From positions 1-64,000 of the forward strand of contig JAGAQG010000054.1 of assembly GCA_017622875.1 (NCBI GenBank): DNA of 64,000 nt, in the 5' to 3' direction. This stretch comes from Lachnospiraceae bacterium. Lineage in GTDB: Bacteria > Bacillota > Clostridia > Lachnospirales > Lachnospiraceae. Below the pieces are notes generated by a model. The model had not been told where the DNA came from. It worked only from the letters and a program-made list of their open reading frames with translations, and did not search any database. Of the stretch, positions 41,349 through 58,917 are shown piece by piece. The position numbers and the translations under genes were made by a program. The first letter of the stretch is position 1. The number at the start of each line of letters is the position of its first letter.

Positions 41349-42632
41349 ATGAAGAAGAAATTAATTGTTACATTCCTACTGCTTTTTTCGTTTTTAGTTA
41401 CGGGCTGCCAGATGAAAGAAGAGATTGAGCCGGTGCATTTATCTTTCATCCATGGATGGGGAGGGACTTTGCGTGCTCACTCCATCATGCAGGAAATTTA
41501 TGATGATTTTGATGCACAGAATGATGATATTATTTTGAGTTCTCAGCCATCTTCGGACAGTTCCATTGCTGTGGAGAAGGCAAACGATATGCTGGCGCTG
41601 GATGAAATGCCAAACATTGTCAGCACCAACGGTCAGTCTTTCTATGTGGAAAATGCGGCAAAGCGTGGAAAGCTGTTAAACCTGATGAATTATCTTCGTC
41701 AGGATTCAGAGCTGATGTCCCAGATTCACCCGTCGGTTTTAAGTGTATGGACGAATACCGACGGAAGTCTCTATACCCTTCCTGATGCTCTGGAAGTAAT
41801 GGGATACTGGTATAATGAAAAATATTTTATTGAGGCCGGTATTGTCGATGAAAATGGAGAGGCGGCACTGCCAGGGACCTGGGAAGAGTTTTTTGAGGTC
41901 TGTGAAAAGCTTGAACAGTGGAACAGGACCTCCGGGATGCTGGAGAGTGTCTATGCGCTGGAAAATGTACAGGTGGTGGAGAATCTGCTGCTTGCAAGAC
42001 TGGGCGGAGAAAATAAAGCCGGACTTCTCATGGCAACAAATCAGCCGGAAACTTATGATACGGAAGAATTCAGAAAGGTCATTCTTGATTTTTCCAGAAT
42101 CTATCAGTATTCGAAAAATACAGACAGTCTGGAAAATGCCAGACAATATTTTATAGAAGGCACTACAGCCATTTATTTTAACGGGGTATGGGAGAGCGAG
42201 GTCATCCAGAGCAGCAGCCGAAGTAATGAGATTGCTTATGCAAATTATCCGACCAATTACGGAATGCAGTTATCTTACGTATCACCATCTTCCGGGTATG
42301 TGGTATATGACAGTCCGGATGAAAGGGAGAATGAGGCGGCCATCCGATTTTTAAAATACATACTTAGTCAGGAAATCCAGACAAGGCTTGCTGCGGAGAC
42401 TGGACAGGCTCCATCCAATCCTAAGGTAGATAATCAGGTCATTGCAGAGCAGTACCCGGTACTGGGTAACGCACTGGAAACTGCGCACCGTGCAGAAATA
42501 CAGCTAAAGACCATTACTTCTGTATGGAGCAGTGAGGCGATAGATATTATTTCCGCATCCATTGAAAAGGCATGCAAAGATCCGGCAGAGCTGGAAAAAA
42601 TGATTCAGTCTCTGGAAACAGCCCATAAATAA
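41349..42632 (+). CDS. Extracellular sugar-binding lipoprotein (1)
   Basis: 427 residues. Lipoprotein signal with lipobox LVTGC (Cys about residue 20). Type 1 solute-binding fold: FIHGWGG near the start, IPNIVST-like ligand loop, the conserved GYWYNEKYFIEAGI, TAIYFNGVWESE and the C-terminal AIRFLKYILSQEIQ pattern. It is a distant paralogue of the lipoprotein gene at 42806. Own promoter and strong terminator separate it from the transporter genes, so it may serve as a sensor partner for the two-component system or as an alternative binding protein. Ligand unknown. Confidence 0.85.
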   Translation: MKKKLIVTFLLLFSFLVTGCQMKEEIEPVHLSFIHGWGGTLRAHSIMQEIYDDFDAQNDDIILSSQPSSDSSIAVEKANDMLALDEMPNIVSTNGQSFYVENAAKRGKLLNLMNYLRQDSELMSQIHPSVLSVWTNTDGSLYTLPDALEVMGYWYNEKYFIEAGIVDENGEAALPGTWEEFFEVCEKLEQWNRTSGMLESVYALENVQVVENLLLARLGGENKAGLLMATNQPETYDTEEFRKVILDFSRIYQYSKNTDSLENARQYFIEGTTAIYFNGVWESEVIQSSSRSNEIAYANYPTNYGMQLSYVSPSSGYVVYDSPDERENEAAIRFLKYILSQEIQTRLAAETGQAPSNPKVDNQVIAEQYPVLGNALETAHRAEIQLKTITSVWSSEAIDIISASIEKACKDPAELEKMIQSLETAHK

Positions 42633-42644
42633 AATGTACACAGG

Positions 42645-42688
42645 ATTGCACTTTTATGACTGAAAAGTCAATAAAGTGCAATTTTTTA
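42645..42688 (+). terminator. Rho-independent terminator after lipoprotein gene 1
   Basis: ATTGCACTTT and ATGACT pair with AGTCA and AAAGTGCAAT (42645-42682), followed by six T residues. Confidence 0.9.
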
Positions 42689-42805
42689 TGGGTGTTCAAA
42701 ATTACAGGCAAAAAAGTGCGAAAAATAAATGGTTTCGTTCATTCAGTTACTTGTCCCTCTGGTGCTAAATTTTAAGTACAAAGTTTTAAGGAGGGTAATA
42801 AAACT

Positions 42806-44182
42806 ATGAAAAAGAAACTCATTAGCTTACTTCTTTGCTCAGCTATGGTTGCATCCATGGTAGTTGGATGCGGCGGCGGAAGCGAAGAAGCAGCGGAAAC
42901 TCCAGCAGCAACTGAAGAAGCAGAAGTTACAGAAGAAGCTGACGGTGAACTTCCAACAATCACATTTGTACACGGTTATTACCATGATGAATCTGAATGG
43001 GCAGCAGCTGCTGAAATGCGTGCGATCTACCAGGAATTCGCAGATGCTCATAAAGATGAATTCAACTTCGTAATCGTAGCTGACGAATCCGGAGCAGAAG
43101 GTATCTACAACACAGCACTCAACGATTTAGGTGCTGGTAACTTCTATGATATCGCTGATTTCGGTGGTTGGGACATCACTCCTGTAGCATCAGCAGCAGG
43201 CGCAATCGTTGACCTTAAACCATACCTGGATGAAGATGCAGCTTTCAAAGCTGGTGTTGGAGTATGCTACGACCAGAACTTAACAGCTGATGGCGCTATC
43301 TACTCTGTTCGTGAACAGATCGAAGGTGTTGGCTTCTGGTACAACGAAGCATTATTCGCAGAAGCAGGCGCAAAAGTTCCATCTGAATGGTCTACATGGG
43401 CTGACTTTAACGAAGCAGTTGACGCTTTAGTAGCAGCTGGCATCACACCATTTGGTCTTAACGCCGGATGGCCAACAAACATCCTCTTAGCTGGATACTC
43501 TCAGAGAAGCGAAGCTTCCAGAGCATTCTACGCAGATGGAAAAGCTGTTGAAAGCTTTGATGATGAAACATTCAAAGAATCCATCGCTTTCATGCAGGAA
43601 AACGTATTACAGAAAATCGACGCAGCTAACTTCGGACCTGGCGGGGATGATGATGAAGCTTACAGAACAGCATTCTTTGATGGCGAAACAGCAATGCTCT
43701 TCAACGGTGTTTGGGATGCAGGCGGATCTGTAGACTGTGCAGCAGGCGCTGAAAACATCAAACCGGCAGTATTCCCAACAGATGAAGCTGGCAAGAGCGC
43801 AGCTCTTCTTTCCGGTGGATGCGGATTTGTTGTAGGATCTCACCTTGACGAAGCACAGACAGCAGCAGCTATCGAATTCATCAAATACATGACAAGCCCT
43901 GAAATCGCAGCAAGAATTATCGAAAAAGGTATCGGTATGGCTCCAAGTACAGAAGTTGACTACGATGCACTTGCAGAAAAAGTTACAACTGATGATGCAA
44001 AACTCTTAGTTGAAGCTTGCAGACTTTGCCAGAACGCAGATTATCAGGCACTTGGTCTTGGAAACACATTCGGCGATGCTGAAGGCGAAATCCAGGCGAA
44101 ATATGCAGGATTAAAAGACGGATCTAAGACTGTAGATGATGTAGTAGCGGAATTAAATGATTTCCTTGCTGCAGCAGAATAG
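42806..44182 (+). CDS. Extracellular sugar-binding lipoprotein (2) of an ABC importer
   Basis: 458 residues. Lipobox VVGC at about residue 22, Glu/Ala-rich tether, then a type 1 solute-binding fold beginning TITFVHGYYHDESEWAAAAE. The GVGFWYNEALFAEAG and TAMLFNGVWDAGG motifs match those of the paralogue at 41349. Codon usage (GCA, GAA, AAC bias) suggests high expression. AAGGAGGG precedes ATG 42806. It is followed by two permease genes, so it is the binding subunit of that importer. Ligand is inferred to be an oligosaccharide freed from host glycans. Confidence 0.9.
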   Translation: MKKKLISLLLCSAMVASMVVGCGGGSEEAAETPAATEEAEVTEEADGELPTITFVHGYYHDESEWAAAAEMRAIYQEFADAHKDEFNFVIVADESGAEGIYNTALNDLGAGNFYDIADFGGWDITPVASAAGAIVDLKPYLDEDAAFKAGVGVCYDQNLTADGAIYSVREQIEGVGFWYNEALFAEAGAKVPSEWSTWADFNEAVDALVAAGITPFGLNAGWPTNILLAGYSQRSEASRAFYADGKAVESFDDETFKESIAFMQENVLQKIDAANFGPGGDDDEAYRTAFFDGETAMLFNGVWDAGGSVDCAAGAENIKPAVFPTDEAGKSAALLSGGCGFVVGSHLDEAQTAAAIEFIKYMTSPEIAARIIEKGIGMAPSTEVDYDALAEKVTTDDAKLLVEACRLCQNADYQALGLGNTFGDAEGEIQAKYAGLKDGSKTVDDVVAELNDFLAAAE

Positions 44183-44202
44183 TTCGTATTAGCAAATAGG
44201 AA

Positions 44203-44232
44203 GGGGGCTATCTTAGATAGTCCCCTGTTTTT
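44203..44232 (+). terminator. Attenuator hairpin between binding-protein and permease genes
   Basis: GGGGGCTATCT (44203-44213) pairs with AGATAGTCCCC (44215-44225), then TGTTTTT. Such a partial terminator would keep the binding protein more abundant than the permeases. Confidence 0.7.
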
Positions 44233-44248
44233 AAGGAGGAAGATTTTC

Positions 44249-45175
44249 ATGACATCCCCTAAAAAGAATTCATTGAAAAAAATCTTTACAAGAAAGAACG
44301 GATTTGTTCTTGCGTTTTTACTTCCTGCAATCATCCTGTGGGCAATCATTTACGCATATCCACTGATCCAGATTTTTTTCACATCATTCTCAAAATGGAA
44401 TTATAAAAACTTCCTGAACCCGGAATTTCTGGGTTGGGAGAATATGTTTGACAACTACATAAAATTATTTACAGTAGACAGAAACTTCCAGGTAGCACTT
44501 GTAAACTCTTTGAAATGGGTAGTACTTACAATGTGCATTCAGATGCCATTTACAGTCATCGTGGCGCTGGTTCTCTCAAAGAAACCGAGAGGATGGAAGC
44601 TTACAAGAAATGTATTTATCATTCCAAACATTATCTCTACAGCGGCAATCGGTCTGATTTTCTTAAACCTTTACAGCCCATCCAGAGGTATTGTAACTGA
44701 AATCTGCAACATGATCTGGCCAGGCTCTGATGTCAGCGTGCTTGCAAACCCTACCTATGCTTTCTGGGGCGTTACATTTTCATTTATCTTATTTGGCGGT
44801 TCATCCTGTCTTCTTTTATTAACACAGATCTTCTCCATCGATCCTGCAATCTATGAAGCAGCGAGAGTGGATGGCGCAAATGAAAGACAGCTTGACTTAA
44901 AGATTCGTCTGCCGCTGATGCGTCCGATGATTGGTACGGTATCTGTTATGGCTGCAAACTACGGTCTGCTGCTTTATAACGAAATCGCGCTGATTTCTCA
45001 GGGCGGTCCTGACAATGCAACCTACAGTTTAAGCTACTATGTATACAAAACAGGTCTTGGAAGCACAAAGCTGAACTTTGCGAGGGCAAATGCAGCCGGT
45101 GTGATTCAGATCATTTTAGGTATCGTACTGGTAGGCCTTATCAATAAAGCATTCCGTACTGATGAAGCGGATTAA
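44249..45175 (+). CDS. Sugar ABC transporter permease (1), UgpA/MalF-like
   Basis: 308 residues with six membrane helices. The ATPase-docking EAA loop is EAARVDGANERQLDLKIRLP. LRNV-type phrase ... LTRNVFIIPNIISTAAIGLIF and the GGPDNATYSLSYYVYKTG segment are typical of carbohydrate uptake family 1 permeases. AAGGAGGA precedes ATG 44249. No ATP-binding subunit gene is in the cluster. A shared MsmK/UgpC-type ATPase encoded elsewhere is common in Firmicutes. Confidence 0.93.
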   Translation: MTSPKKNSLKKIFTRKNGFVLAFLLPAIILWAIIYAYPLIQIFFTSFSKWNYKNFLNPEFLGWENMFDNYIKLFTVDRNFQVALVNSLKWVVLTMCIQMPFTVIVALVLSKKPRGWKLTRNVFIIPNIISTAAIGLIFLNLYSPSRGIVTEICNMIWPGSDVSVLANPTYAFWGVTFSFILFGGSSCLLLLTQIFSIDPAIYEAARVDGANERQLDLKIRLPLMRPMIGTVSVMAANYGLLLYNEIALISQGGPDNATYSLSYYVYKTGLGSTKLNFARANAAGVIQIILGIVLVGLINKAFRTDEAD

Positions 45176-45192
45176 GAAGGGAGATATGGAAA

Positions 45193-46026
45193 ATGCAGAA
45201 ATCAAAAAGCAAATTAGGTGATTTCCTTAGCAGTGCATTTGGAAAGCTCATCATGTTTATCGTAATTTTTATATCCCTTTATCCAATCGTATGGGTATTC
45301 TTATCATCCTTTAAAGAAAATCCCGGGGGATTATCTTTACCGGACAAATGGGTATTAGACGGATATATTACTATTTTTACAAAATTAAATATCTTAACTT
45401 ACTTTAAGAACAGCCTGGTTATTACAGTTTGTTCTACAGTGATCAGTGTTCTGATCGTATCAATGGCTGCTTATGTATCAGCAAGAATGGAATTTAAATT
45501 TAAAGGTCTGGTTACATTAATGTTCTCTACAACATTATTTATCCCGGCGATTTCTATTTCCTTACCAATCTATCAGCTGATCAACAGCCTGGGTCTGAAA
45601 GATTCCCATATCGGTGTGATCTTCATTTATTCAGGTCTTGGTATTGCAACAACCTACTTTATCCTTCGAAGCTATTTCTTAAGTATTCCGAAGGAAATGG
45701 AAGAAGCGGCGAGAATTGATGGCTGCGGCTATGTAGGAAGCTTCTTCAGAATCATCGTGCCAATTGCAAAACCTGGTATTTCAACTGCTGCAATCATGGC
45801 ATTTTTAAATAACTGGAATGAATTCTACTTTGCATCGATTCTCTTAAAGAGCAAAGACAAGATGACACTTCCGGCACTTTTGGGACAGTTTACGACTGCT
45901 TATTCCAAAAACTTAAACGGTATGTTCTCAGCGATTATCGTAACAGTTGTACCGACAATCGTTATTTTCTGCTTACTGTCTGAGACATTCGTAAAATCTC
46001 TCACAGCTGGTGCTGTAAAAGGATAA
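45193..46026 (+). CDS. Sugar ABC transporter permease (2), UgpE/MalG-like
   Basis: 277 residues with six membrane helices. EAA loop EEAARIDGCGYVGSFFRIIV followed by PIAKPG, and NNWNEFYFASILLKS matches the family C-terminal motif. Forms the heterodimeric channel with the preceding gene. GAAGGGAGATATGG precedes ATG 45193. Confidence 0.93.
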   Translation: MQKSKSKLGDFLSSAFGKLIMFIVIFISLYPIVWVFLSSFKENPGGLSLPDKWVLDGYITIFTKLNILTYFKNSLVITVCSTVISVLIVSMAAYVSARMEFKFKGLVTLMFSTTLFIPAISISLPIYQLINSLGLKDSHIGVIFIYSGLGIATTYFILRSYFLSIPKEMEEAARIDGCGYVGSFFRIIVPIAKPGISTAAIMAFLNNWNEFYFASILLKSKDKMTLPALLGQFTTAYSKNLNGMFSAIIVTVVPTIVIFCLLSETFVKSLTAGAVKG

Positions 46027-46056
46027 GAAGCACATATTATAGGAGGAGCACGAAAA

Positions 46057-47376
46057 ATGGGAATCATGGAAGAAAGAGAACAGCGTACCAAATGGTTTAT
46101 GCATGACCGCTTTGGTATGTTTATTCACTGGGGTCTGTATAGTATTCCTGCAAGGGGAGAATGGGTCAGAGGTGACGAACAGTTATCCGATGAACATTAT
46201 ATGGAATACTTTAAGGAGTGGAATCCTGTAGACTGTGACATGAAAGAATGGGCAAGAGTGGCAAAGGAAGCAGGCATGAAATATGCAGTGCTTACCACAA
46301 AGCACCATGAAGGCTTCTGTCTGTTTGACAGTCAGTATACAGACTTTAAATCAACAAATACAGAGTGCAGGAGAGACCTGGTTAAAGAATACGTAGAAGC
46401 ATTCCGTGAAGCCGGATTAAAGGTTGGTTTCTATTATTCACTGCTTGACTGGCAGCACCCGGATTATACAGTTCGCGGTGATATGTATCATCCGAATAAA
46501 AACAGACCGGAATGCTGCGAAAAAGAAGACCAGCGTGATTTCAACAGATATTTGGAATACATGCACAATCAGGTGCGCGAGCTTTTAACAAACTATGGAA
46601 AAATCGATCTGTTATGGTTTGATTTTTCTTATGAAGGACATATCGGCTCAGACTGGAAGGGCGAAGAACTGATGAAAATGGTTCGAAAGCTTCAGCCGGA
46701 TATCATCGTTAACGGACGTCTGGAAGCAAATGGCGAAAGCTATGGTTCTGTTATGACAGACGAACCAAATATTTTCTCCGGTGATTTTGCGTGTCCTGAA
46801 ATGATCATTCCGCCATATGGTCTTAGAACACCATCCGGCAGAGCAATTCCATGGGAAGCCTGCTTTACTTTGAACAACAACTGGGGTTATGCTCCATTTG
46901 ATTTACATTACAAAACATCCTCACAGATCATTAAAAAGCTTGTAGAATGTACAAGTAAAAATGGTAACATGATCGTAAACATTTCTCCGGATGCAAAAGG
47001 AAACATTCCTCAGATTCAGAAAAACATCCTGGCAGATGTTGGAGCATGGATGAAGAAAAATTCTAAATGTATCTATGGCTGCGGCATGTCAGACCTTCCA
47101 AAACCGGAATGGGGCAGATATACACAGAATGGCAACAGGGTTTATGCATGTATTACTGAAGAAAGTATCGGTGCCATTGCACTTCCTGGTCTTAGAGATA
47201 AGATTAAGAAAGCAAGAAGAGTGTCGGATGGCTTTGAAATGCGTATGCTGACACCATGGGTAGCGAAGGAGTTCCCGGACTGTGAATTTATGAACTACAG
47301 TGTACCGGACTGCTTCTCATTCTCGATTGACAAGACTCCGGTTGAAGTAATCGAACTGGAGCTTAAGGAGGATTAA
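46057..47376 (+). CDS. Intracellular alpha-L-fucosidase, family GH29
   Basis: 439 residues with no signal peptide. N-terminal [20 protein letters not shown], then [16 protein letters not shown] and [10 protein letters not shown], all GH29 signatures. The predicted nucleophile is Asp189 in DLLWFDF. The C-terminal region is a short beta domain. It removes alpha-linked fucose by a retaining mechanism. The intracellular location means that fucosylated oligosaccharides are imported before fucose removal, which fits the linked permeases. GGAGGAG precedes ATG 46057. Linkage specificity cannot be read from the sequence, but alpha-1,2-fucose of blood-group trisaccharides is a good candidate. Confidence 0.92.
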
Positions 47377-47377
47377 A

Positions 47378-48697
47378 ATGAAAAAAATTACATTTATCGG
47401 TGCAGGAAGCTTTGACTTCACAAGAGAACTGGTAAGAGATATCCTGACTTATGATGCCTTTAAAGATGCACATATCTGCCTGATGGATATTGATCCGCAG
47501 AAGCTTTCTTATATAGAAAAAGCATGCCATAAGATCAAGGAAGCAGGAAATTATCCTGTAACCATCGAGGCTACTCTGGATAGAGAAAAGGCTCTGGAGG
47601 GTGCAGACGGTGTAGTTATCACTGTACTGACAGCAGGACCGGATATTTTCAGAACAGATATTGAAATTCCGAAAAAATATGGTGTAGATATCTGCGTTGG
47701 AGACACCAGAGGACCAGCAGGAATCTTCAGATTTTTACGTTCCGCACCAGTGCTTCTTGATATCTGCAGAGATATTGAAAGAATCTGTCCGGATGCTTAC
47801 GTATTAAACTACACAAACCCAATGGCACTCAACTGCCGTTATTTACAGGAAATGACAAAGGTAAAGGTAACAGGTCTTTGCCACAGCGTCCAGCACACAG
47901 CAAAAATGCTTGCAGACTGGATCGGCGCGGATATGAAGGACGTAGAATATACATGTGCAGGTATCAACCACATGGCATTCTACCTTGATTACAAATGGAA
48001 AGGCGAAGATGCTTATCCACTGATTCGCAAAGCAGTAGAACGTGAAGAAATCTACAATGAAGAACAGGTTCGTAACCAGCTATTCTTACATTTAGACTAT
48101 TATCCGACAGAAAGCTCAGGACACAACTCAGAATACTATCCATGGTTCAGAAAACGTCCTGACCTGATTGAAAAATACTGTACTCATTCCACAGGCTGGA
48201 ATCCGGGTGCTCATGCTTACATTTTAAATGAATATTTCCGACGTCAGAACGAATGGCAGCAGGATATTTTAAAATGGCTGGATGAACCGGAAGTTGACCT
48301 GGAACGCGGTCAGGAATATGCAGCATGTATTTTCAATGCATTATTTGGAGATAACACACCATTTGATTTCAATGGAAACGTACGTAACGAAGGATGGATC
48401 ACAAACCTTCCGGATGGCTGCTGCGTAGAAGTACCGGTGACCGTTACAAAGGATGGTTACACCGTACATCCTGTAGGAGAGCTTCCGCCACAGCTTGCTG
48501 TTATGGATAATACTGCTGCAAGAAGTGAAGAGCTGGCAGTCAGAGGATGCATCGAAGGGGATAAACGTAAGATTTTCCACGCAATTTTAGTGGATCCATT
48601 GACATCAGCAGTGCTCAGCATGGACGAAATCCGGGAAATGGTAGACGAAATGTTTGAAGCAAATAAAGATTATCTCCCACAATTCTGCCAGAAATGA
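47378..48697 (+). CDS. GH4 family glycosidase, alpha-galactosidase type
   Basis: 439 residues. NAD-dependent family GH4: [16 protein letters not shown] at the N-terminus (Rossmann), DRGP-type [23 protein letters not shown], and GLCHSVQ with Cys168-His169-Ser170. In GH4 the residues following the metal-binding Cys sort with specificity, and the CHS form is found in MelA-type alpha-galactosidases. The enzyme uses NAD and a divalent metal and an oxidation-elimination mechanism. It starts one base after the fucosidase stop with GGAGG. A role in removing alpha-galactose, as in blood-group B, is inference. Alpha-GalNAc cannot be excluded. Confidence 0.87.
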
Positions 48698-48730
48698 TAG
48701 AATAGTAGAAAAAACGGGCGGAGATAAGTT

Positions 48731-50524
48731 ATGGCAAAAGAAAAACGCAGATATTCCTTAAGAAACAGAATGATTGGCTACAATCTGACTTTAATGATTT
48801 CGGTAGTGGTACTTTGCGGTATCATTTTTATCGCGTCTGTAGGTCTTATTTTAGGCAGTTATGTTCAATCGGACATTAATTTCCTTCTGACAGCCACTGC
48901 AGATTCCATGGAATCCGGAATTTCCTATTGCTCCGATGTGGTAACAAAGGTCAGAAAGTCAGAGCTTCTTATGGACTATCTGGTGGAACTAAAGGACGAA
49001 ACCCTCTCGGAGGAAGAAAAGTCAGAGCTGAAAAAGGAATTTGAAAAGCAGGTTTCCATCAGCAGCCAGAGCATTCCGGGAACCGGAATTTCTCCTTTGG
49101 TAGAAAAGGTTTATCTTTTTGACAATGAGGGGCACTACCTGAACAGCACCTACTATGCCATGACTTATGCGGAAATTGAAAAAAGCAACCGCGCGTTTGT
49201 AGAAATTTATGAAAAACATCAGAGGTCAATGTCTGGTGAGAAGGACTATGGTTACTATCCTCTGGATGAGCAGAGCATCTGTCTTCTGTTTCCTGTTTTA
49301 GATGACAGAATGGAGCAGGTAGGCAGCATTCTGTATCAGATTGAAAAGTCTGCATTAGAGTATACGATGCAGGATATCGTAAAATACGAGGGTGCTTTCT
49401 GGAGCCTGTGCGACAGAGACGGAGCAGATGTATACGGGCAGAATACAGAAATCTTTACAGAAGGAAAGGAAGCACTGTTAGAGAAATTTGGAAGCCAGCC
49501 ATTTAGTACAGAGGTGGCAGGAAAAAGCTTTAATCTTCACAGAAGAAGCATCGGAATGAATCTGGAGCTTTTTATCGGCATTCCACAGAACCAGTTCTTT
49601 ACACTCATTTTTGATTCAATCAAAGTTTATGCGGTTGCCATTGCGCTCATTGCAGCGGCAGCCTGCATAACACTTATAGTTTTGATTTACCGGATGACGA
49701 AACCGATCACAGATGTCACCGACAAGCTGAGAGAGGTTAAGACCGGTAAATTTGATACAAAGCTTCCGGAGTATGACAGTACAGAGTTCCATGAAATCAG
49801 CCGGGTATTCAATGAGATGACTGCCTATATTGACAACCTGATCAAGCAGGTATATGAAAAGCAGCTTTCCATCAAAGATATGGAAATGAAGTTTTTACAG
49901 ACTCAGATGAATCCCCATTTTATGTTCAATGTACTAAATACCATTGCACTGCAGGCGCAGCTGGATGGAAATCAGGAAGTTTACCGCATGATCAGCTCCT
50001 TTAGTCAGCTGATTCAGGCGAAGATTTATCGTGATAAATCAGAAAAAGTCAAAATCTGTCAGGAGCTTGAGTATGTCAATTATTATCTGTATCTGCAGAA
50101 CTACAGATATGGTGACAGGCTGCAGTACGAGATCAATATTCAGGATGAAAAACTGACAGATTACTATATTCCAAAGCTTTGCATTCAGTTGATCGTAGAA
50201 AATGCGGTGGTGCATGGGATTGAGCCGCTGATTGGGAAAGGACTTGTCCGGGTAAACATTTACGAGGATGCAGACGCGCTCTGTATTGATACAGAGGATA
50301 ATGGAGTTGGTTTTGAACAGTCGGGAGAAATCATTCTTCCATTAGAACAAAAGACAGGTGATAAGAGCCATAACCATGTTGGCTTGAACAATGCTCACCA
50401 TATTATCAGACTGATGTATGGGGAGAACTATGGAATCCGTGTATTTTCTGCTCCTGGAGAGGGCAGTAAAATATGTATCAGGATACCGTTTGATGACGGA
50501 AAAACAGGAGAAACTAAGGGATGA
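48731..50524 (+). CDS. YesM-type sensor histidine kinase
   Basis: 597 residues. Two membrane helices (about 17-42 and 295-320) flank an extracellular sensor domain. HAMP covers about 321-375, and the His_kinase family block QTQMNPHFMFNVLNTIA has phospho-His396. The ATPase N-box is VENAVVHGIEPL and the G-box region includes DNGVGF. Such kinases (YesM, LytS-like) in Lachnospiraceae commonly sense sugars with or without a binding protein. Overlaps the response-regulator gene by four bases, so the pair is coupled. Confidence 0.93.
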   Translation: MAKEKRRYSLRNRMIGYNLTLMISVVVLCGIIFIASVGLILGSYVQSDINFLLTATADSMESGISYCSDVVTKVRKSELLMDYLVELKDETLSEEEKSELKKEFEKQVSISSQSIPGTGISPLVEKVYLFDNEGHYLNSTYYAMTYAEIEKSNRAFVEIYEKHQRSMSGEKDYGYYPLDEQSICLLFPVLDDRMEQVGSILYQIEKSALEYTMQDIVKYEGAFWSLCDRDGADVYGQNTEIFTEGKEALLEKFGSQPFSTEVAGKSFNLHRRSIGMNLELFIGIPQNQFFTLIFDSIKVYAVAIALIAAAACITLIVLIYRMTKPITDVTDKLREVKTGKFDTKLPEYDSTEFHEISRVFNEMTAYIDNLIKQVYEKQLSIKDMEMKFLQTQMNPHFMFNVLNTIALQAQLDGNQEVYRMISSFSQLIQAKIYRDKSEKVKICQELEYVNYYLYLQNYRYGDRLQYEINIQDEKLTDYYIPKLCIQLIVENAVVHGIEPLIGKGLVRVNIYEDADALCIDTEDNGVGFEQSGEIILPLEQKTGDKSHNHVGLNNAHHIIRLMYGENYGIRVFSAPGEGSKICIRIPFDDGKTGETKG

Positions 50525-51765
50525 GATACAAAGTAATGCTTGCAGATGATGAACCAATCATGCGCAAGGCCCTGCAGTCTTTGATCAACTGGAACAGTAT
50601 TGACTGTGAGGTTGTCTTCGTGGCGGAAAATGGAAAAGAGGTTCTAAACAGTCTGGAAGAGATGTGTCCGGATATTCTGATTACAGATATTAAAATGCCG
50701 GGAGCAGACGGAATTGAGATTGCAAAGTATATATGGGAAAAAAAATTACCGACCAAGGTGATTTTGCTGACTGCTTATGCGGATTTTTCCTATGCTCAGT
50801 CTGCAATTCGATATGACGTTGTAGAATACGTTACGAAAACAGGTGCCTTCGATGAGCTGCTTCGGGCAGTAGAGCGCTGTAAGCTGCTTCTAAAAGAAAG
50901 AATTCTTCTTTCCTCAGAGGAAAAGGAAGCAAGAATGGAGAGCTTTTTCCGCGGTGTATATGATGGCAATATCTATAATGAAATCACATCCCGCTATGAG
51001 CAGCTGCACCTGGGAGTGACGGATTATACAGTGGTGTTCTTCGAATTTTTGATGGATGATGCCACAGAACGCTCCAAACGTGTCAAGCTTTATGACAGCC
51101 TGAAAAACTTCTTTCATCTGGCTTTTGCAGAACAGGTGGTTCATGGTATCTTCTACAAAAAAGATATGTACGGTTTGGTGCTGAAATGTCCGCAGGGACA
51201 GGAAAAAACGGAAAGCTATCTAAAAGAGACTTGCACGAAGGTCATGGATATGATGGACAACTTCATGGAACTGTATGTTTTCGTGGGAATCAGTGGAATG
51301 CATGGGGATATTGAGGAGCTGCCGGATGCCTATGAAGAAGCACAGACAGCGTTAAATCACAGCCACCTGGAGGAGAGTGAGAAGCTGAATTTCTATACAG
51401 AGGAAATGAAGGATGAATCCATGCCGGTGGTAAGCTATGATACAAAGCAGCAGCTTGTAAAGGACAGTCTCAAATATATAGAAAAGCATTATCAGGAGCC
51501 GATGTCTGTAATGGATATTTCCAGAGCTCTTGGAACAAGCACCAGCTATTTAAGCAGAATCTTTAAAGAGAGCACTGGTGAAACCATTATTCGTACAATC
51601 AATAATAAGCGAATCGAAAAAGCGAAGGCTTATCTGAAAGAAACTGATTTGAAGGTATATGAGGTGGCAGATATTCTGGGATTTGAAAATGTGACCTATT
51701 TTTCAAGATTTTTCAAAAAACATACCGGAGTATCGCCAAAGGATTACAAGGAAAGCAGGAAATAA
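50521..51765 (+). CDS. YesN-type response regulator with AraC DNA-binding domain
   Basis: 414 residues. Receiver domain (about 1-120) with the acidic pair in LADDEPIM, phospho-acceptor Asp56 in ITDIKMPG and Lys of TKTG. The central region is less conserved. The C-terminal AraC-type double helix-turn-helix (about 315-414) includes MSVMDISRALGTSTSYLSRI and ADILGFENVTYFSRFFKKHT. It is paired with the preceding kinase and most likely activates the uptake and glycosidase operon and perhaps the GH98 genes. Confidence 0.94.
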   Translation: MRYKVMLADDEPIMRKALQSLINWNSIDCEVVFVAENGKEVLNSLEEMCPDILITDIKMPGADGIEIAKYIWEKKLPTKVILLTAYADFSYAQSAIRYDVVEYVTKTGAFDELLRAVERCKLLLKERILLSSEEKEARMESFFRGVYDGNIYNEITSRYEQLHLGVTDYTVVFFEFLMDDATERSKRVKLYDSLKNFFHLAFAEQVVHGIFYKKDMYGLVLKCPQGQEKTESYLKETCTKVMDMMDNFMELYVFVGISGMHGDIEELPDAYEEAQTALNHSHLEESEKLNFYTEEMKDESMPVVSYDTKQQLVKDSLKYIEKHYQEPMSVMDISRALGTSTSYLSRIFKESTGETIIRTINNKRIEKAKAYLKETDLKVYEVADILGFENVTYFSRFFKKHTGVSPKDYKESRK

Positions 51766-51766
51766 A

Positions 51767-52687
51767 ATGAAATATTATATTGGAATTGATGGCGGCGGAA
51801 GCAAGACCATGTTTGCGATTTCCGACGAAAGTGGAAAAATTTTAGGAACTGCATTGGCAGGAAGTGCCTTTTACAAACAGATTGGGGAAGAAGGAGTCAT
51901 CGATCTGTTAAGAAACGGTGTAGCAGAAGTATGCAGATTTGCAGAGGGGGATGCTACAGACATCGCATCGGTATGCTTTGGCATGCCGGCCTGGGGAGAA
52001 TCTCCGGTGAATGATAAGATCATCGAAGAGAAAATTTTAAGTACCTTCCCGGAATGGAACATTCACATTGTCAATGACTGTGAAGTGGGCTGGGCAGGTT
52101 CTTTAGAGCTGTACCCGGGTATCAATATTGTGGCTGGCACAGGCTCCATTGCTTTCGGTAAAAATGAAGAAGGCGTGACTGCAAGATGCGGCGGCTGGAG
52201 TGAATGGTTTGGAGATGAAGGCTCAGGCTACTGGCTTGGGGTAAAATGTGTACAGTTATTTTCCAGACAGTCCGATGGCAGAGACGAACGGGGGCCATTA
52301 TATGAAATCGTAAGAAAAGAACTGAATCTTTCTGTGGACGAAGAGATTATCGATTTGTTTGAGCAGGAATATTTACATAAACGTGATAAAATCGCATCTT
52401 TGCAGAAGCTGTTATTGCAGGCTGCAAAGGAGGGCGATGTTTATGCAGTCGACACATATGCGCAGGCTGCAAAGGAGCTTTATGACATTGTGTGTGGTGT
52501 GAAGAAGAAAATCTTCGCGGATAAAAATTGTCTGGTATCATGCTCCGGCGGTATTTTCAAGACGGGAGATGTGATTCGTAAACCGTTTAGGAAGCTTTTG
52601 GAAGCGGACGGTATGGAATTGACAGAGTCTAAGGCAGAGCCTTATGTGGGAGCTGTGTTATTGGCAAAATACTACGAAAATAAATAA
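51767..52687 (+). CDS. BadF/BcrA-family sugar kinase (amino-sugar kinase-like)
   Basis: 306 residues of the ASKHA fold: N-terminal phosphate-1 motif YIGIDGGGSKTMFAI, VNDCEVGWAG, phosphate-2 IVAGTGSIAFG, and GGWSEWFGDEGSGYWLG, followed by a C-terminal SCSGGIFKTGDV. This is the signature of the BadF/BadG/BcrA/D family members that include eukaryotic-type N-acetylglucosamine kinase. Phosphorylation of GlcNAc or GalNAc freed from imported glycans is plausible. It starts one base after the response-regulator stop and is the last gene of the operon before a strong terminator. Confidence 0.85.
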   Translation: MKYYIGIDGGGSKTMFAISDESGKILGTALAGSAFYKQIGEEGVIDLLRNGVAEVCRFAEGDATDIASVCFGMPAWGESPVNDKIIEEKILSTFPEWNIHIVNDCEVGWAGSLELYPGINIVAGTGSIAFGKNEEGVTARCGGWSEWFGDEGSGYWLGVKCVQLFSRQSDGRDERGPLYEIVRKELNLSVDEEIIDLFEQEYLHKRDKIASLQKLLLQAAKEGDVYAVDTYAQAAKELYDIVCGVKKKIFADKNCLVSCSGGIFKTGDVIRKPFRKLLEADGMELTESKAEPYVGAVLLAKYYENK

Positions 52688-52708
52688 AAGTGTAAAATTA
52701 AGTAGGAC

Positions 52709-52747
52709 AGATGTGACATTAATTGAAATAATGTTACATCTGTTTTT
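52709..52747 (+). terminator. Rho-independent terminator after the kinase gene
   Basis: ACAGATGTGACAT pairs with ATGTTACATCTGT (one G-T pair), followed by six T residues. The readable coding sequence of the next gene begins right after it. Confidence 0.9.
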
Positions 52748-52878
52748 TGTGAGTAAAAAAAGTACAACAATTTATAAATAAAGTAATTGCTGATGGAGCA
52801 ACAGCAGAAGTTGAAATTAAAGTCAAAGATCCTTCAACTGAAACACAGAGACTGACAATCGATAATGAAAATCCGTTA

Positions 52879-54945
52879 TTGATTGTTCCTCTTTACGGAC
52901 AGGAGTACAATGCGGACGGATCAGAAATGCAGTGGGATGATACATTGGTAGGTCGTTGGGAATCACTTCCGGATGATATTAAAGATAATGTCGTTATCTT
53001 AATTCATGCATCCCAGATTGCAAACGGTTCATTGAAAGCATTCTATGAACAGCAGCTTGAAATTGCAGAAGCAAATGACATTCCTGTAATGATTGTAACA
53101 GCAACAGCAGGTCTGAAGAATTATTGGACATCAACTACAGACATTGCATACGATACAGAATGGTTGAATAATGTCATGGAAACCTATGATTGCCTTAAAG
53201 GTTTCGTTATTACTGAAAACTACTGGACAGATTATAATGCAGTTGCAACAGCAGCAGCAACGCACCTGGAAATTGCAGCCGAAAATGGCGGATATGTAAT
53301 CTGGTTCGAACATCAGACTCAGGTTATTGAATCTGTATTACAGAATAGTGACTTTAGCAAAGCTCTTGGAGAGTATGGAGATAACTTCTCATTCACATGG
53401 AAGAATACACCAGCTGGTGCTAATCAGAATGCAGAAACATCTGCGTATATGCAGGGGCTCTGGCTGACAGGTGTAATTGACCAGTGGGGCGGACTCATGG
53501 ATACATGGAAGTGGTATGAAAAACATTATGGTAAACTCTTCCAGGGAACAACAAGCTACAATGGAAGCAGCGCAGGTGGGGCAGACGAAGAATGCCGTGC
53601 TGTTGTTATGGAACCGGAAGCACTTTTAGGTATTGAAATGCTTTCTATCTATGCAAACGGTGGTGCAATCTACAGCTTTGAACATCCGGCTTATACACAG
53701 GGTATCAATGATGAAAATACACCATTATTCGAAAATGTAATTTATGAAACATTTAAGTACATTTTGGATAACCCTGGACCAACAAAAGAAGAAGTTCTTG
53801 AAGATACAAAAGTTTTCATTCATGGTAACTTAAGCAGTAACACGGATTTACATACAGGATTGACATCTGATGACCAGACATTACCTGCACACTCCTCAGG
53901 ACGCTATGGATTACTTCCGGCAGTACCTTCATCAGTGAGCATTGCATCCCTTCCGAATAATATTAAAATTGTAGGAACGGATGATCTGTCAGTTGATGAT
54001 TTAAATAGTCTTTACACAGAAGGCGCATACGAAGGTGATGCGTTTGCACAGTATGTAAACGGTAAATGGATTCTTTACAACAGCGAGGTAAATGAAGATA
54101 TCGACCAGAGCGCAACGGTTTCGGTAGGTGGACAGAGCGTAAAAGTGGATATGGAACCACATACATACTCAATTATGGAAACAGAAGATGGAAGCATTTC
54201 TGTATACTTAAACAACTATCGTGTAAACAAAGACGAAATCTGGGAGGGCTACGGAAGCAGTGTGACCAGATGGGATCCGGATGTTAATAACTTATTAGAA
54301 AACTGGTTAGCAGAAAACTATATGGAAGATCCGGCAGATGGAGCAGATACATATAGAACAACTACATTTACATTAACAGATCTTGAAAAAGAACCAGTTG
54401 TAAATGTAACTCGCCAGAAGGAAACAGACTTTACAACAACAGTAGATTACGATGCAGAGACAGGCACAGCTGTAATCACTGTAAAAGCAAATGGTTATGT
54501 ATACTTTACAATCGGTGAAGAAAGCGATACAACAGTAACACCAGATAAAGTTGATAAATCAGCTCTTGAGTCAGCAATTAACAATGCAAATAAGAAAGAT
54601 AAAGATGATTATACATCATCAAGCTGGAAAGCATTAGAAAAAGCATTGGAAGCAGCAAAAGCTGTGTATGCAGATACTAACGCAACTCAGACTGAAGTAG
54701 ATACAGCAGCACTTGCATTAAATAATGCGATTGCTGGTCTGGAATCTTCAAGACCAACTACAGTTGTTATCACAAAGAAAGAAGAAAGCAAAAAGAGCAG
54801 TTCCTCAAGCAGCACAGGTACAACAGCAGCTGCTACAACACCAACTGCTACAGGCGACAGCACAGATATTGCTTTGATGATTTCTTTACTTGGAATTTCA
54901 GCAGTGGCACTGGTTGGAATTTTCTTCAAAAAAAGAAAGGCATAA
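52879..54945 (+). CDS. 5'-truncated wall-anchored GH98-like glycoside hydrolase (1)
   Basis: 688 residues from TTG 52879, but there is no ribosome site, and in-frame coding sequence can be read back to a stop at 52750, immediately after the terminator. No signal peptide or NPCBM domain exists, unlike in the neighbouring paralogue. Catalytic region about 1-310 (LIVPLYGQEYNADGSEMQWD at the start, YMQGLWLTGVIDQWGG later) and a second domain about 315-560 (SGRYGLLPAVPSSVS) resemble GH98 N- and C-domains. A FIVAR helical module follows (about 567-625), then a Ser-rich linker, TATGDS, a membrane helix and KKRKA. Probably a pseudogene or assembly-truncated gene. GH98 assignment is by remembered family patterns. 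Confidence 0.7.
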   Translation: MIVPLYGQEYNADGSEMQWDDTLVGRWESLPDDIKDNVVILIHASQIANGSLKAFYEQQLEIAEANDIPVMIVTATAGLKNYWTSTTDIAYDTEWLNNVMETYDCLKGFVITENYWTDYNAVATAAATHLEIAAENGGYVIWFEHQTQVIESVLQNSDFSKALGEYGDNFSFTWKNTPAGANQNAETSAYMQGLWLTGVIDQWGGLMDTWKWYEKHYGKLFQGTTSYNGSSAGGADEECRAVVMEPEALLGIEMLSIYANGGAIYSFEHPAYTQGINDENTPLFENVIYETFKYILDNPGPTKEEVLEDTKVFIHGNLSSNTDLHTGLTSDDQTLPAHSSGRYGLLPAVPSSVSIASLPNNIKIVGTDDLSVDDLNSLYTEGAYEGDAFAQYVNGKWILYNSEVNEDIDQSATVSVGGQSVKVDMEPHTYSIMETEDGSISVYLNNYRVNKDEIWEGYGSSVTRWDPDVNNLLENWLAENYMEDPADGADTYRTTTFTLTDLEKEPVVNVTRQKETDFTTTVDYDAETGTAVITVKANGYVYFTIGEESDTTVTPDKVDKSALESAINNANKKDKDDYTSSSWKALEKALEAAKAVYADTNATQTEVDTAALALNNAIAGLESSRPTTVVITKKEESKKSSSSSSTGTTAAATTPTATGDSTDIALMISLLGISAVALVGIFFKKRKA

Positions 54946-54971
54946 CCGGTTCGGCTGGTGTTGATTTTAGA

Positions 54972-55009
54972 AAATGGCTGAGGCGCTGGAAACAGCGCTA
55001 AAGCCATTT
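54972..55009 (+). repeat. Stem-loop between the two GH98-like genes
   Basis: AAATGGCT (54972-54979) and GCGCTG (54983-54988), loop GAAA, pair with CAGCGC (54993-54998) and AGCCATTT (55002-55009). No T-run follows. Possible processing or stabilising hairpin 34 bases before the second gene. Confidence 0.6.
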
Positions 55010-55042
55010 GGATATTTAAGAAGTTATACGAGAGGAAATATA

Positions 55043-55810
55043 ATGAAAAGTAGAAGAATAAAAATACTTTCCATTCTGTTGACATTGTGTATGATAGTAG
55101 GCATGTTGCAACCGGCTGCGGTGTATGCGGCAGAAACTACAGACACAGGGGAGACAGTGATTGCTGAAGAAATTGATGATTCTGTAGATGAATCGTCATC
55201 AGGTGGGGGTAATGACGCAGAAACACCAGTTGACGCAGAAACACCGTCTGAAACAGAAACACCGTCTGACGCAAAGTCACCAGCTGTTGAAGAAGCAACG
55301 GGAGTATCAGATGTAGAAGCACAGATAGCAACGGCATCTGAAACTACAGTTACTATAGATACTTATCTGTCAGATTTAGAATGGACAGAGCAGTCCTGCG
55401 GCGGCAAGAGTGACTTCCCGAATGGAACAGCAAAAAACACTAATATAAATGGTGCTCCAATGCAGCTGGTAGTGGATGGAACTGCCCAGACATTTGCAAA
55501 AGGACTTGGTATCCATGCACCATCTTCTGTAACATACAACATAGCAGGCAAGGGATATATGAAATTCCAGTCATATGCAGGGGTAGATTACAGTAGAGTA
55601 AATGATTATAACAATGGCGAAGCTGTAATTGGTAACTTCATCGTAAAAATTGATGGTGAAGTAGTAGCTGAAAGCGGTGAAATGAACCCTTCAATGGATG
55701 CACACTTCTTTGATGTTGCAATTCCGGCAGATGCTGAAACGATTACATTAGAAACAGAGATCGGTTCCGCTCAGGACTGGTCTGACTGGGGTGATTGGGC
55801 AGATACTTAA
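55043..55810 (+). CDS. N-terminal part of GH98-like enzyme (2): signal peptide and NPCBM domain, frameshifted
   Basis: 255 residues from ATG 55043 (AGAGGAAA upstream). Signal peptide (about 1-31, cleaved after VYA), an acidic Thr/Pro/Glu-rich spacer with repeated ETPSE-like units (about 50-85), and an NPCBM-type carbohydrate-binding domain (about 110-255: TYLSDLEWTEQSCGG, FAKGLGIHAPSSVTYNI, GYMKFQSYAGVDYS). The domain is cut by a stop at 55808 although its final strand (LRLYMAGSDKGTTNHVC) continues in the next frame. Adding one T in the ACTT run near 55806 restores one frame (ADTLRLYMAG). Together with the following frame this is one protein of about 1290 residues. Confidence 0.85.
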   Translation: MKSRRIKILSILLTLCMIVGMLQPAAVYAAETTDTGETVIAEEIDDSVDESSSGGGNDAETPVDAETPSETETPSDAKSPAVEEATGVSDVEAQIATASETTVTIDTYLSDLEWTEQSCGGKSDFPNGTAKNTNINGAPMQLVVDGTAQTFAKGLGIHAPSSVTYNIAGKGYMKFQSYAGVDYSRVNDYNNGEAVIGNFIVKIDGEVVAESGEMNPSMDAHFFDVAIPADAETITLETEIGSAQDWSDWGDWADT

Positions 55811-58800
55811 GACTTTATATGGCTGGTTCTGATAAGGGAACAACAAACCATGTTTGTGAAATCGAAGCATGGGGATGGGAAATCGAATCAGATCCTGTAC
55901 CGGCTACAGGCGTAGAAATCACAGCGACAAAAATCTCTTATGAAGAAGGAACAACCATTAAGGAAGGCAGAAAAGCATATCTTTCCGCTTCTGTACTTCC
56001 AACAGATTCTACAGAAGATATCGTTTCCTGGTCATCAGCAGACGAATCTGTCGCAACTGTAGAATTTGACGGCGATGAATGTGTTGTAACGGGTGTGAAG
56101 GCTGGAGAAGTTGCGATTACAGCAACAACTACAGAAGGCGCAGAAGGTACAATTACAATCAACGTTCTTGAAAAGAAAGAAGCAGCAGCTCCACGACGTG
56201 TAGTTGATGCAGACCACATTTTATACCTTGAAAACTATTACTGGAGTGACGATTTTGCAAACAAGAGTGGAATTTCCGGTAATGTGGCACAGGAGGATCG
56301 TGTAGACAGCCCTGTCATGCTTTGGGAAACAGTTCCTGATTCATTAAAGGACAATACAGTCATTCTCCTGATCGCAGAACGAAGCTTAAATAACACTGAC
56401 GCGATCAAACAGTGGATCAAAGACAATGTAGAGCTTTGTAATGCAAACAACATTCCATGTGCAGTTCAGAACTTAAATGGTGAAACCGACATGAGTAATC
56501 CGATTCCAATCGAATTCTATGAAGAACTTGCACAGAACAACCCATACCTTGTAGGATTCAACGGTGCAGAACTTTACAACCGCTTCAACGGTGATGCAAG
56601 AGAATACATGGTTGACCTTATTCAGATGGGTGTTGAAAATGGCGTTCATATGATGTGGACAGATACAAATATCTTCGGCGAAGATGGTGTATTGGTAGAC
56701 TGGTTAGAAGAATGCCAGGATCTCTCAGATGTTATGAGAGCAAATAAAGATTATATCTCATTAATGTACAAAGAATCTTACGGAAGACCTGATACAGAAG
56801 CTTTATACATTGGTCTGTGGTTAACAGATTATATTGGCAACTGGGGTATTGCATCTGACTGGTGGCACTGGCAGTTAGACTCTAACGGTGCATTGTTCGA
56901 TGCAGGTTCAGGCGGAGATGCATGGAAACAGTGTCTCACATGGCCGGAAGCTATGTATACAATGGATATTTTAAGAGCGGCAAGCAATGGTGCTACATGC
57001 TTCAAGTCAGAAGCTCAGTGGTACTCAAATGCTACAAAGGGAATGAGAACACCTGCATATCAGTACACAATTGCTCCATTCCTTGAAAAACTTGCAAGCG
57101 GTGAATACAAGATTCCAAGTAAGGAGGAAGTATTAGCTGATACAAAAGCAATCGTAGTTGGACGTAAGAACTGGACAAACTTCAATTATGATACAAGTTA
57201 TTCACAGTTATATCCGGCTACAGATAAATACGGTATCGTTCCATTCGTTCCGGAAAATTGTCCGGCAGAGGAACTGGAACAGTTTGAAAATGTATTTACA
57301 ACTCCAATTACAAAGGATAAAATGGATGAAATTTACACAACAGACGTAACAGGCGGAACAGCATACTGTGAAAACTATGGTGATACATACTACTTCATGA
57401 ATTCTTCAGAAGATAAGGTTGTAACACAGAACGCAGTGATCACTGTAACATGCGATGAAAAACCTACAGCAGTCTTTGCAGCAGATAACGAATACACAAG
57501 ACCTTATGAATACACAGAAGATTGGAATGCTGATACAAAGACATACACATTGACTGTAAAACATAATGGTATTGTAGATGTTGATCTTATTACAAACAAG
57601 GTTGCAGCAACGACAATTACTGTAACACCTGAGACAGCAGACCTGAAAGTTGGAGAAAACGTTCAGTTAGAAGCTGCATTAAATAATGGTTCAACAGCAA
57701 CTGTCACATGGAAATCTTCTGACGAAGCAGTAGCAACGGTAAACGGCGGAAAGATCACAGCAGTAAAACCTGGTAAAACAACAATTACAGCTACAACATC
57801 CAATGGCTTAACAGCTGCGGTTGAATTAACTGTAACAACAGATCCAAATCCAAGTAAAGAAATTGCACAGTCCGGAATCAAAGCGACAACAGACAGTGCA
57901 TACGGCGGAACATCAGAGGGTCCTGCATCTAACGTATTAGATGGTAATATGGGTACAATCTGGCACTCAAATTACGCTCCAAAAGATAAGCTTCCTGTAT
58001 ACATCGAGCTTGATCTTGGCGCTGAATATTCTGTGAACAAGATTGAATATGTACCAAGAAGCGGTGGTGGAAATGGTACGATTACAAAATACAACCTGTA
58101 CATCGATGGAGAACTCGTTATCGAAAATGGCACCTGGGAATTATCAGAAGATGTGAAAGAAATCACATTTGATACTCCTGTAAAAGCTACAAAGATTAAA
58201 CTTGAAGTTCTTGAAGGTAAAGGCGGATTTGCATCTGCGGCTGAAATCAGAGTATATCAGCTTGCTGGAATTTCTTCAGAAATTTCACCGGATACAGCGG
58301 CACTTGCAGCAAAAGTAGATCAAGCAGCAGCATTAGATCTTACAAAATATGAAGATGGTACTGCAAAAGAAGCATTTAAATCAGCACTGACAGCAGCACA
58401 GGCGCAGGCTGCAAACCCAACAGATCAGTTTGCGGTAGATAAAGCTCTTGCAACCCTTGAAAAAGCACAGGCAGCTCTTGTGAAAATTGCTGATACAACA
58501 GAAGCAGAAGGTGACGACCAGAAGAAAGGTGAAGCATCTGGAAACTCTGGATCATCCGGCTCGAAAGGCTCAGCTAACAAGAAGGATCTTAAGAAAGCAA
58601 TTACGAAAGCTGAAAAATTGAATGAATCTGACTATACATGGTATAGCTGGGATGACCTTGAAACTGCTCTGAAAAAAGCAAAAGAAGTATATGACGACAA
58701 GGGGGCAACACAGGGAGAAGTTGACAAAGCAGTCGTATTATTAAATGCTGCATTTAGTTCACTTCGTACCACAAGCACATTAGTTGAAGGATCTAAACCT

Positions 58801-58917
58801 GCTTCTACATCGCCAATTGCTACAGGTGATAGTGCAAACATTGTTCCGATGATTGCGTTACTTGGAATCGCAGCAGTTGTATTTGTAGGCATTACGTACA
58901 AAAAGAAAAAATCATAA
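55795..58917 (+). CDS. Main part of GH98-like wall-anchored enzyme (2)
   Basis: 1040 residues, in the frame after the break. End of the NPCBM domain (1-32), a Big2-like Ig domain (about 38-125), GH98-like catalytic region (about 135-460) with YLVGFNGAELYNRFNGD and IGLWLTDYIGNWGIASDWWH, and the C-domain to about 600 (YGIVPFVPENCPAEEL). A second Big2 domain (about 602-680), an F5/8 type C lectin-like domain (about 690-820: NVLDGNMGTIWHSNY) and two FIVAR modules (about 835-895 and 925-990) follow. The end is PIATGDS, membrane helix and KKKKS. No signal peptide in this piece and no ribosome site at 55795. GH98 enzymes release A/B blood-group trisaccharides. Specificity here is untested. Confidence 0.78.
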   Translation: MGRYLRLYMAGSDKGTTNHVCEIEAWGWEIESDPVPATGVEITATKISYEEGTTIKEGRKAYLSASVLPTDSTEDIVSWSSADESVATVEFDGDECVVTGVKAGEVAITATTTEGAEGTITINVLEKKEAAAPRRVVDADHILYLENYYWSDDFANKSGISGNVAQEDRVDSPVMLWETVPDSLKDNTVILLIAERSLNNTDAIKQWIKDNVELCNANNIPCAVQNLNGETDMSNPIPIEFYEELAQNNPYLVGFNGAELYNRFNGDAREYMVDLIQMGVENGVHMMWTDTNIFGEDGVLVDWLEECQDLSDVMRANKDYISLMYKESYGRPDTEALYIGLWLTDYIGNWGIASDWWHWQLDSNGALFDAGSGGDAWKQCLTWPEAMYTMDILRAASNGATCFKSEAQWYSNATKGMRTPAYQYTIAPFLEKLASGEYKIPSKEEVLADTKAIVVGRKNWTNFNYDTSYSQLYPATDKYGIVPFVPENCPAEELEQFENVFTTPITKDKMDEIYTTDVTGGTAYCENYGDTYYFMNSSEDKVVTQNAVITVTCDEKPTAVFAADNEYTRPYEYTEDWNADTKTYTLTVKHNGIVDVDLITNKVAATTITVTPETADLKVGENVQLEAALNNGSTATVTWKSSDEAVATVNGGKITAVKPGKTTITATTSNGLTAAVELTVTTDPNPSKEIAQSGIKATTDSAYGGTSEGPASNVLDGNMGTIWHSNYAPKDKLPVYIELDLGAEYSVNKIEYVPRSGGGNGTITKYNLYIDGELVIENGTWELSEDVKEITFDTPVKATKIKLEVLEGKGGFASAAEIRVYQLAGISSEISPDTAALAAKVDQAAALDLTKYEDGTAKEAFKSALTAAQAQAANPTDQFAVDKALATLEKAQAALVKIADTTEAEGDDQKKGEASGNSGSSGSKGSANKKDLKKAITKAEKLNESDYTWYSWDDLETALKKAKEVYDDKGATQGEVDKAVVLLNAAFSSLRTTSTLVEGSKPASTSPIATGDSANIVPMIALLGIAAVVFVGITYKKKKS

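Follow-up and report, generated by a model that had tools for sequence, protein, structure and literature searches.

What glycan is a gut bacterium feeding on when it carries, side by side, a sugar importer, a fucosidase, an unusual glycosidase and two genes of glycoside hydrolase (GH) family 98, and which enzyme opens that glycan inside the cell? We addressed this question for a gene block at positions 41349..58917 of a 64,000-nucleotide stretch of DNA from a Lachnospiraceae bacterium (GCA_017622875.1, contig JAGAQG010000054.1; the window below), which belongs to a contig of 76,227 bases (C40) in an assembly of 2.74 Mb, 69 contigs and 87.7% completeness, the sole genome of its genus in our comparison set. 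Our results support a model in which the locus takes up and degrades a fucosylated trisaccharide, the product of GH98 action on blood-group A and perhaps also B antigens, and in which a GH4 glycosidase most likely acts on alpha-linked N-acetylgalactosamine (GalNAc); we give this model a probability of about 0.6. Certain bacteria live on the blood-group A and B antigens of gut mucin, and the wish to make universal donor blood has created a demand for enzymes that strip off the A or B sugar. The kind of locus is already known, as are its importer, fucosidase and GH98 parts, yet a GH4 that may cut alpha-GalNAc and a BadF-family kinase stand where a GH36 enzyme is usual.

Family identities in the block come from Pfam and NCBIfam profile searches at curated cut-offs, and nearest solved relatives from PDB sequence matches. 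Pfam placed every family that the original prediction had named (a CUT1 importer, GH29, GH4, a YesM/YesN pair, BadF and two GH98s) where it had been read; the open reading frame (ORF) at 54974-55810 was absent from that listing. The features are as follows.

41349..42632, + strand: SBP1, a lipoprotein-type solute-binding protein (SBP; PF13416, 80.5 bits)
42806..44182, + strand: SBP2, the importer's substrate-binding lipoprotein (Pfam; best PDB match 2w7y, 186 bits)
44249..45175, + strand: CUT1 permease 1 (PF00528, 32.5 bits against a cut-off of 26.4; synteny)
45193..46026, + strand: CUT1 permease 2 (PF00528, 67.5 bits)
46057..47376, + strand: GH29 alpha-L-fucosidase (PF01120, 298.9 bits; best PDB match 6gn6, 580 bits)
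47378..48697, + strand: GH4 glycosidase (Pfam PF02056 and PF11975, 171.8 and 169.3 bits)
48731..50524, + strand: YesM-type sensor histidine kinase (HAMP, His_kinase, HATPase_c)
50521..51765, + strand: YesN-type response regulator (Response_reg, HTH_18)
51767..52687, + strand: BadF-family sugar kinase, NagK-like (PF01869, 129.9 bits)
about 52704..52746, + strand: terminator-like hairpin 3' of BadF (-21.4 kcal/mol, z -6.08)
52756..54945, + strand: GH98A, an open frame truncated at its 5' side, with FIVAR and a C-terminal tail (PF08306, about 238.4-241.6 bits; PF08307, 161.6 bits)
54974..55810, + strand: ORF with a signal peptide and CBM51 (NPCBM; PF08305, 93 bits; best PDB match 2ygl)
55795..58917, + strand: GH98B, divergent, with Big_2, F5/8 type C, FIVAR and a C-terminal tail (PF08306, about 65.6 bits; PF08307, 26.6 bits against a cut-off of 25)

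The original reading of this block as a blood-group A/B utilisation locus is well supported by homology, because the gene set recurs in most related loci, published relatives share it, and SBP2, GH98A and the CBM51 ORF all find blood-group proteins as their closest solved matches. The GH98 profile PF08306 is present in 6 of 397 sampled genomes of the family, the source genome counted, and GH98A homologues in the 5 others together with 12 loci from a named collection make 16 distinct loci (Robinsoniella entered once; for its four further GH98 genes, genomic context was taken for GH98B only). Homologues of SBP2, both permeases and GH29 accompany GH98A in 14 of these 16; the two exceptions are G218, which reaches a contig end after SBP1, and G394, which has weak permease matches and is without GH29. 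The nearest solved relative of SBP2 is the pneumococcal sugar-binding protein 2w7y (186 bits, 8.3e-54; runner-up 69 bits), which we take to be the binding protein of the CUT1 transporter of the pneumococcal alternative fucose operon, an operon that pneumococcal locus L069, one of the 16, matches by gene content. The A and B terminal trisaccharides are described as the specific substrates of that transporter, which is without an ATPase of its own (PMC3302838; this and the other papers are cited from excerpts of their text). GH98A is closest to Sp3GH98 chains (369 bits, with Sp4GH98 at 331 and RgGH98 at 306; the structure names 2WMI and 2WMG follow PMC8730463), and Sp3GH98 liberates A and B trisaccharides (PMC8730463). 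The published Roseburia inulinivorans locus (L067) is one of the 16; its SBP was top-upregulated on mucin co-culture, its GH98, GH36 and GH29 were also upregulated, and its GH98 frees A and B oligomers (PMC7335108).

The locus encodes no ATPase for its CUT1 importer. The fucosidase is predicted to be intracellular, since no signal peptide was seen in the GH29 translation, and none was seen in that of GH4. SBP1 homologues occur in the G015, G239, G218, G159, Blautia and Roseburia loci, and SBP1 and YesM/YesN co-occur in the window and in the G015, G239, G159, Blautia and Roseburia loci; neither was seen in the Robinsoniella or streptococcal loci, and several of these loci stop immediately before SBP2. 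SBP1 and YesM/YesN could perhaps form a three-part sensor with SBP1 as the sensory partner.

What weighs against the A-antigen model lies partly in the GH98 genes and partly around GH4. Both GH98 ORFs exceed the PF08306 cut-off of 23, GH98B with a match to profile positions 124-323. Failure of the GH98 profiles on both large proteins would have refuted the original prediction, and it did not occur. The active-site acids of the family are presumably the glutamate of TENYW, the aspartate of DTWKW and the glutamate of EPE; GH98A retains all three motifs and GH98B retains the acids in AELYN, SDWWHW and WPEAM. Both also keep a hydrophobic and basic C-terminal tail. As assembled, neither ORF has a signal peptide and each gene has suffered damage at its 5' side, which leaves the extracellular cutting step incomplete; the predicted pair of outward-facing enzymes is not confirmed. 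GH98A has no plausible start: its frame opens only from about 52756, right after the hairpin, and the first listed start, a TTG at 52879, lies within the conserved catalytic domain. The GH98A homologues of Robinsoniella (1778 aa) and G239 (1348 aa) carry CBM51 upstream in the same ORF. At the second gene, the CBM51 ORF stops where the GH98B ORF overlaps it, with a frame change at the join; its CBM51 residues align to positions 269-434 of Robinsoniella GH98B, the next ORF takes up the alignment at positions 581-616 with its initial 36 residues, and about 146 residues are absent relative to that homologue. A single split gene was rejected as an explanation for the GH98 pair, Robinsoniella having two separate genes that match A and B, and the missing GH98A end was not found elsewhere in the (incomplete) assembly, the only NPCBM match being the window's own. 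The strong hairpin between BadF and GH98A was not reported by a consensus terminator scan at about 52704-52746; because of it, the block may comprise more than one transcript. After GH98B, at 59168-59455, lies a fragment of a YczE-like membrane protein, 95 aa against a model of 185 positions.

One explanation for this damage is genuine loss, in a cell that does no more than take up trisaccharides freed by its neighbours; to this we assign somewhat less than an even chance. Such a scavenger would account for GH98A without a start or signal peptide, for GH98B without a signal peptide and its missing residues, and for the shortened YczE-like gene downstream. Genome G015 provides a possible parallel, with an importer, GH29, BadF, SIS, GH4, YesM and YesN set and no GH98 match in the genome, and R. 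gnavus E1, a strain without the GH98 operon, grows on mucin that has first been treated with RgGH98 (PMC8730463). However, the large ORFs remain open over 688 and 1040 codons, unlike old decay, and in one draft assembly of the only genome of its genus strain variation and assembly fault are inseparable. That the organism has whole GH98 genes, from which the assembly dropped pieces, seems to us just as probable as the scavenger. The assembly is a draft, three defects fall within about 6.7 kb of it (52.75-59.45 kb), and multi-domain genes with repeated domain types assemble poorly, but no long near-identical repeat is left in that interval (the longest surviving pair has 130 nt at 72%), and the CBM-bearing end of GH98A was not found elsewhere in the assembly, incomplete as it is. 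The locus may capture a shift from releasing blood-group sugars to scavenging them.

Together with its Robinsoniella homologue (L045:3110-4600, 61%), GH98B represents a divergent type of GH98 whose active-site loop differs. The Robinsoniella peoriensis genome (G234, 7.4 Mb) holds five GH98 matches, some divergent. A Gfo/Idh/MocA oxidoreductase gene adjoins GH98 in Roseburia (L067:11838), Blautia (L060:12072) and G239 (L048:13929); we set aside its assignment to GH109 after comparing the G239 protein with 57 PDB sequences, of which the best was 3e18 and none was named an N-acetylgalactosaminidase. An attempt to separate A-only from A/B specificity, in cleavage of the Gal-beta-1,4-GlcNAc linkage of these antigens, by Gln305 of RgGH98 was likewise dropped: a GH98A tryptophan sits in the loop of that residue but falls one column off that of Sp3GH98, and RgGH98 lay outside the alignment.

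The second question is which sugar GH4 removes. The original prediction described a CHS-type GH4 matching alpha-galactosidases; the family, the CHS motif and the profile match stand, and the role of alpha-galactose remover is not supported as predicted, since the protein sits in a separate clade tied in part to amino-sugar genes. The protein is above cut-off for PF02056 and PF11975 and has the CHS and metal-site motifs. GH4 homologues were drawn from overlapping sets of 145, 392 and 398 genomes and divided into group A (25 rows of at least 55% identity, the window included), group B (4 rows at about 50%) and group C (40 rows of at most 45%, a sample of the stronger matches). Group A forms a single clade apart from E. 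coli MelA (support of 100 in the Shimodaira-Hasegawa-like approximate likelihood ratio test, SH-aLRT, on a quick maximum-likelihood tree with no bootstrap). Arg111 is present in 25/25 group A rows and 0/49 others. Gly248 is also in 25/25 group A rows, where E. coli MelA has Glu, but was rejected as a mark of the clade as it recurs in 9/45 group C and 1/4 group B rows (10/49). With Arg111 and Gly248 (the SSGH loop), the window protein is without the Glu of SSEH and the Leu of DTLG found in MelA, residues that the S. meliloti pSymB GH4 carries as MelA does; it neither groups with MelA nor shares its DTLG/SSEH residues.

The neighbourhoods of the clade partly point to amino sugars. An AgaS match lies within 6.5 kb of GH4 in 9/25 group A members and in none of 40 in group C (E. 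coli AgaS probe, E 1e-5; Fisher p 6.4e-5, uncorrected for relatedness; 8/25 at E 1e-10), with flanks shorter than 3 kb in 8/25 of A and 7/40 of C. The first count used probes partly from the clade itself, and the AgaS result was unchanged at E 1e-5 in a repeat with E. coli probes only. A KbaY neighbour was found in 7/25 against 0/40 (E. coli probe), and PfkB and BadF neighbours in 6/25 and 4/25, each against 0/40, with probes taken from these loci. The window GH4 falls in a supported subset of 9 rows, with an AgaS-like neighbour in 7. Robinsoniella, G015 and G084 keep BadF close to GH4, and in all three an AgaS-like SIS gene separates the two; the nearest relatives, Robinsoniella and G015, share the order GH29, BadF, SIS, GH4; the SIS protein is of amino-sugar-phosphate type and under every NCBIfam cut-off. 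Compact runs of AgaS, GatY, PfkB and a same-clade GH4 occur in four genomes (L055, L073, L074, L075). In G084 (L047:5422-10233), BadF and an AgaS-family gene are flanked by two distinct GH4 genes, and the whole stands behind an ATP-binding cassette (ABC) transporter, possibly a second amino-sugar alpha-glycoside locus.

The catabolic genes fit such a substrate. BadF, read in the original prediction as an amino-sugar kinase, belongs to PF01869 but scores 92.3 bits against NCBIfam NagK_SO3507, below the cut-off of 370, which leaves the family fold only; we propose that it is a GalNAc kinase. Contig C61 holds GatY (411.8 bits), NagA (309.1) and a GalNAc-type phosphotransferase system (PTS) IIB component (210.4), all above cut-off; PTS IIC and IID, AgaS (431.8 against 529.2) and AgaZ/GatZ (501.8 against 568.8) are below theirs. 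The B trisaccharide contains no amino sugar, so an amino-sugar kinase makes sense for the A trisaccharide only. Because the clade is partly tied to amino-sugar genes, BadF is present and GalNAc-catabolic genes lie elsewhere in the genome, removal of alpha-GalNAc appears a better fit for GH4 than removal of alpha-galactose.

The alternative, in which GH4 is an alpha-galactosidase and the locus works on the B antigen, or on both antigens with A handled elsewhere, is unlikely in our view. In its favour, the protein passes the NCBIfam alpha-galactosidase model PRK15076 (520.1 bits against a cut-off of 486), and both the pneumococcal transporter (PMC3302838) and the Roseburia GH98 (PMC7335108) handle A and B. 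It has to contend with the position of GH4 outside the MelA group and with a BadF left without work by a B trisaccharide. GalK, GalT and GalE neighbours were each found in 0/25 of the clade, though they are rare in group C too (2, 0 and 1-2 of 40). Besides that profile match, several observations limit the alpha-GalNAc assignment. An AgaS-like or KbaY-like neighbour is seen in only 12/25 group A members; in 12/25, AgaS, BadF, KbaY and PfkB are all absent nearby, and some adjoin unrelated sugar genes. The rows with AgaS nearby are not phylogenetically independent of one another (the trait changes 5 times on the tree), a NagA-like deacetylase was near 0/25 members with an E. coli NagA probe, and the window locus has no SIS gene. 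The genome also encodes a GH36, on contig C8 (495 bits), with a further weak match on C57, so that another alpha-galactosidase or alpha-N-acetylgalactosaminidase could act in the cell, and the case for GH4 as the necessary enzyme is the weaker for it. A locus for another fucosylated host glycan (H-type, Lewis or milk sugars) is improbable: the best GH98 match of GH98B in the PDB is Sp4GH98 (84 bits), described as Lewis Y-active (PMC8730463), but GH98A, SBP2 and CBM51 all match A/B proteins and an H trisaccharide needs no amino-sugar kinase.

Returning to the A-antigen model, we infer the following order of steps. GH98A and GH98B would formerly have cut outside the cell, their 5' coding parts being lost as assembled. 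YesM/YesN, perhaps with SBP1, would sense the sugar, and SBP2 with the two permeases would import the trisaccharide using an ATPase encoded elsewhere. Inside the cell, GH29 would take off the alpha-1,2 fucose, which could enter catabolism via FucI (contig C37, 950.7 bits, above cut-off), and GH4, by its nicotinamide adenine dinucleotide (NAD)-dependent mechanism, would take off the terminal sugar, most likely the alpha-GalNAc of the A antigen. BadF would phosphorylate the amino sugar for the NagA-AgaS-tagatose-bisphosphate aldolase route on contig C61. More broadly, we suggest, with somewhat less than an even chance, that the Arg111/SSGH-loop clade comprises NAD- and metal-dependent alpha-N-acetylgalactosaminidases that replace GH36 as the opener of the A trisaccharide in loci of the Robinsoniella and window type. 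To our knowledge, this specificity is not known for family GH4. Excerpts of the open-licence PMC literature on GH4 and GalNAc (including PMC13096917, PMC12834350, PMC10952124, PMC10755693, PMC7335108, PMC5018945 and PMC10112845) contained no report of a GH4 alpha-N-acetylgalactosaminidase, and one published GH4, of the 6-phospho-alpha-glucosidase type, is described there as inactive on A and B substrates.

Compared with known systems, the window enzyme shares with E. coli MelA and the S. meliloti pSymB GH4 the family fold and the CHS and AGINH motifs, and differs from MelA in its clade and in carrying Arg111 and Gly248 in place of the Leu and Glu of that enzyme. In Ruminococcus gnavus ATCC 29149, a related gut bacterium, a GH98 operon likewise serves foraging on the A antigen, but in the excerpted account (PMC8730463) it is reported with GH95 and GH73, and its RgGH98 is A-specific, whereas window GH98A is nearer Sp3GH98. 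The pneumococcal alternative fucose operon (SPG2100-2107; PMC3302838) likewise combines an SBP, two permeases, GH29 and a GH98 with CBM51, without an ATPase; it has GH36 instead of GH4 and its own fucose isomerase and aldolase genes, and L069 has no GH4 or BadF match. The Roseburia inulinivorans locus brings SBP1, SBP2, two permeases, GH29, YesM/YesN and GH98 into one neighbourhood, with a full-length GH98 ORF (979 aa) and amino-acid identities to the window of 30-52%; GH36 and a Gfo/Idh/MocA gene take the place of the window's GH4 and BadF. Robinsoniella peoriensis (L044, L045, L059) differs in its long upstream GH98 genes (1778 and at least 2567 aa), in the SIS gene between BadF and GH4, and in that SBP1, YesM and YesN were unmatched within the 40 kb taken, but it shares with the window GH98A (49%), GH98B (61%), SBP2 (73%), the permeases (79 and 75%), GH29 (75%), BadF (51%) and GH4 (86%).

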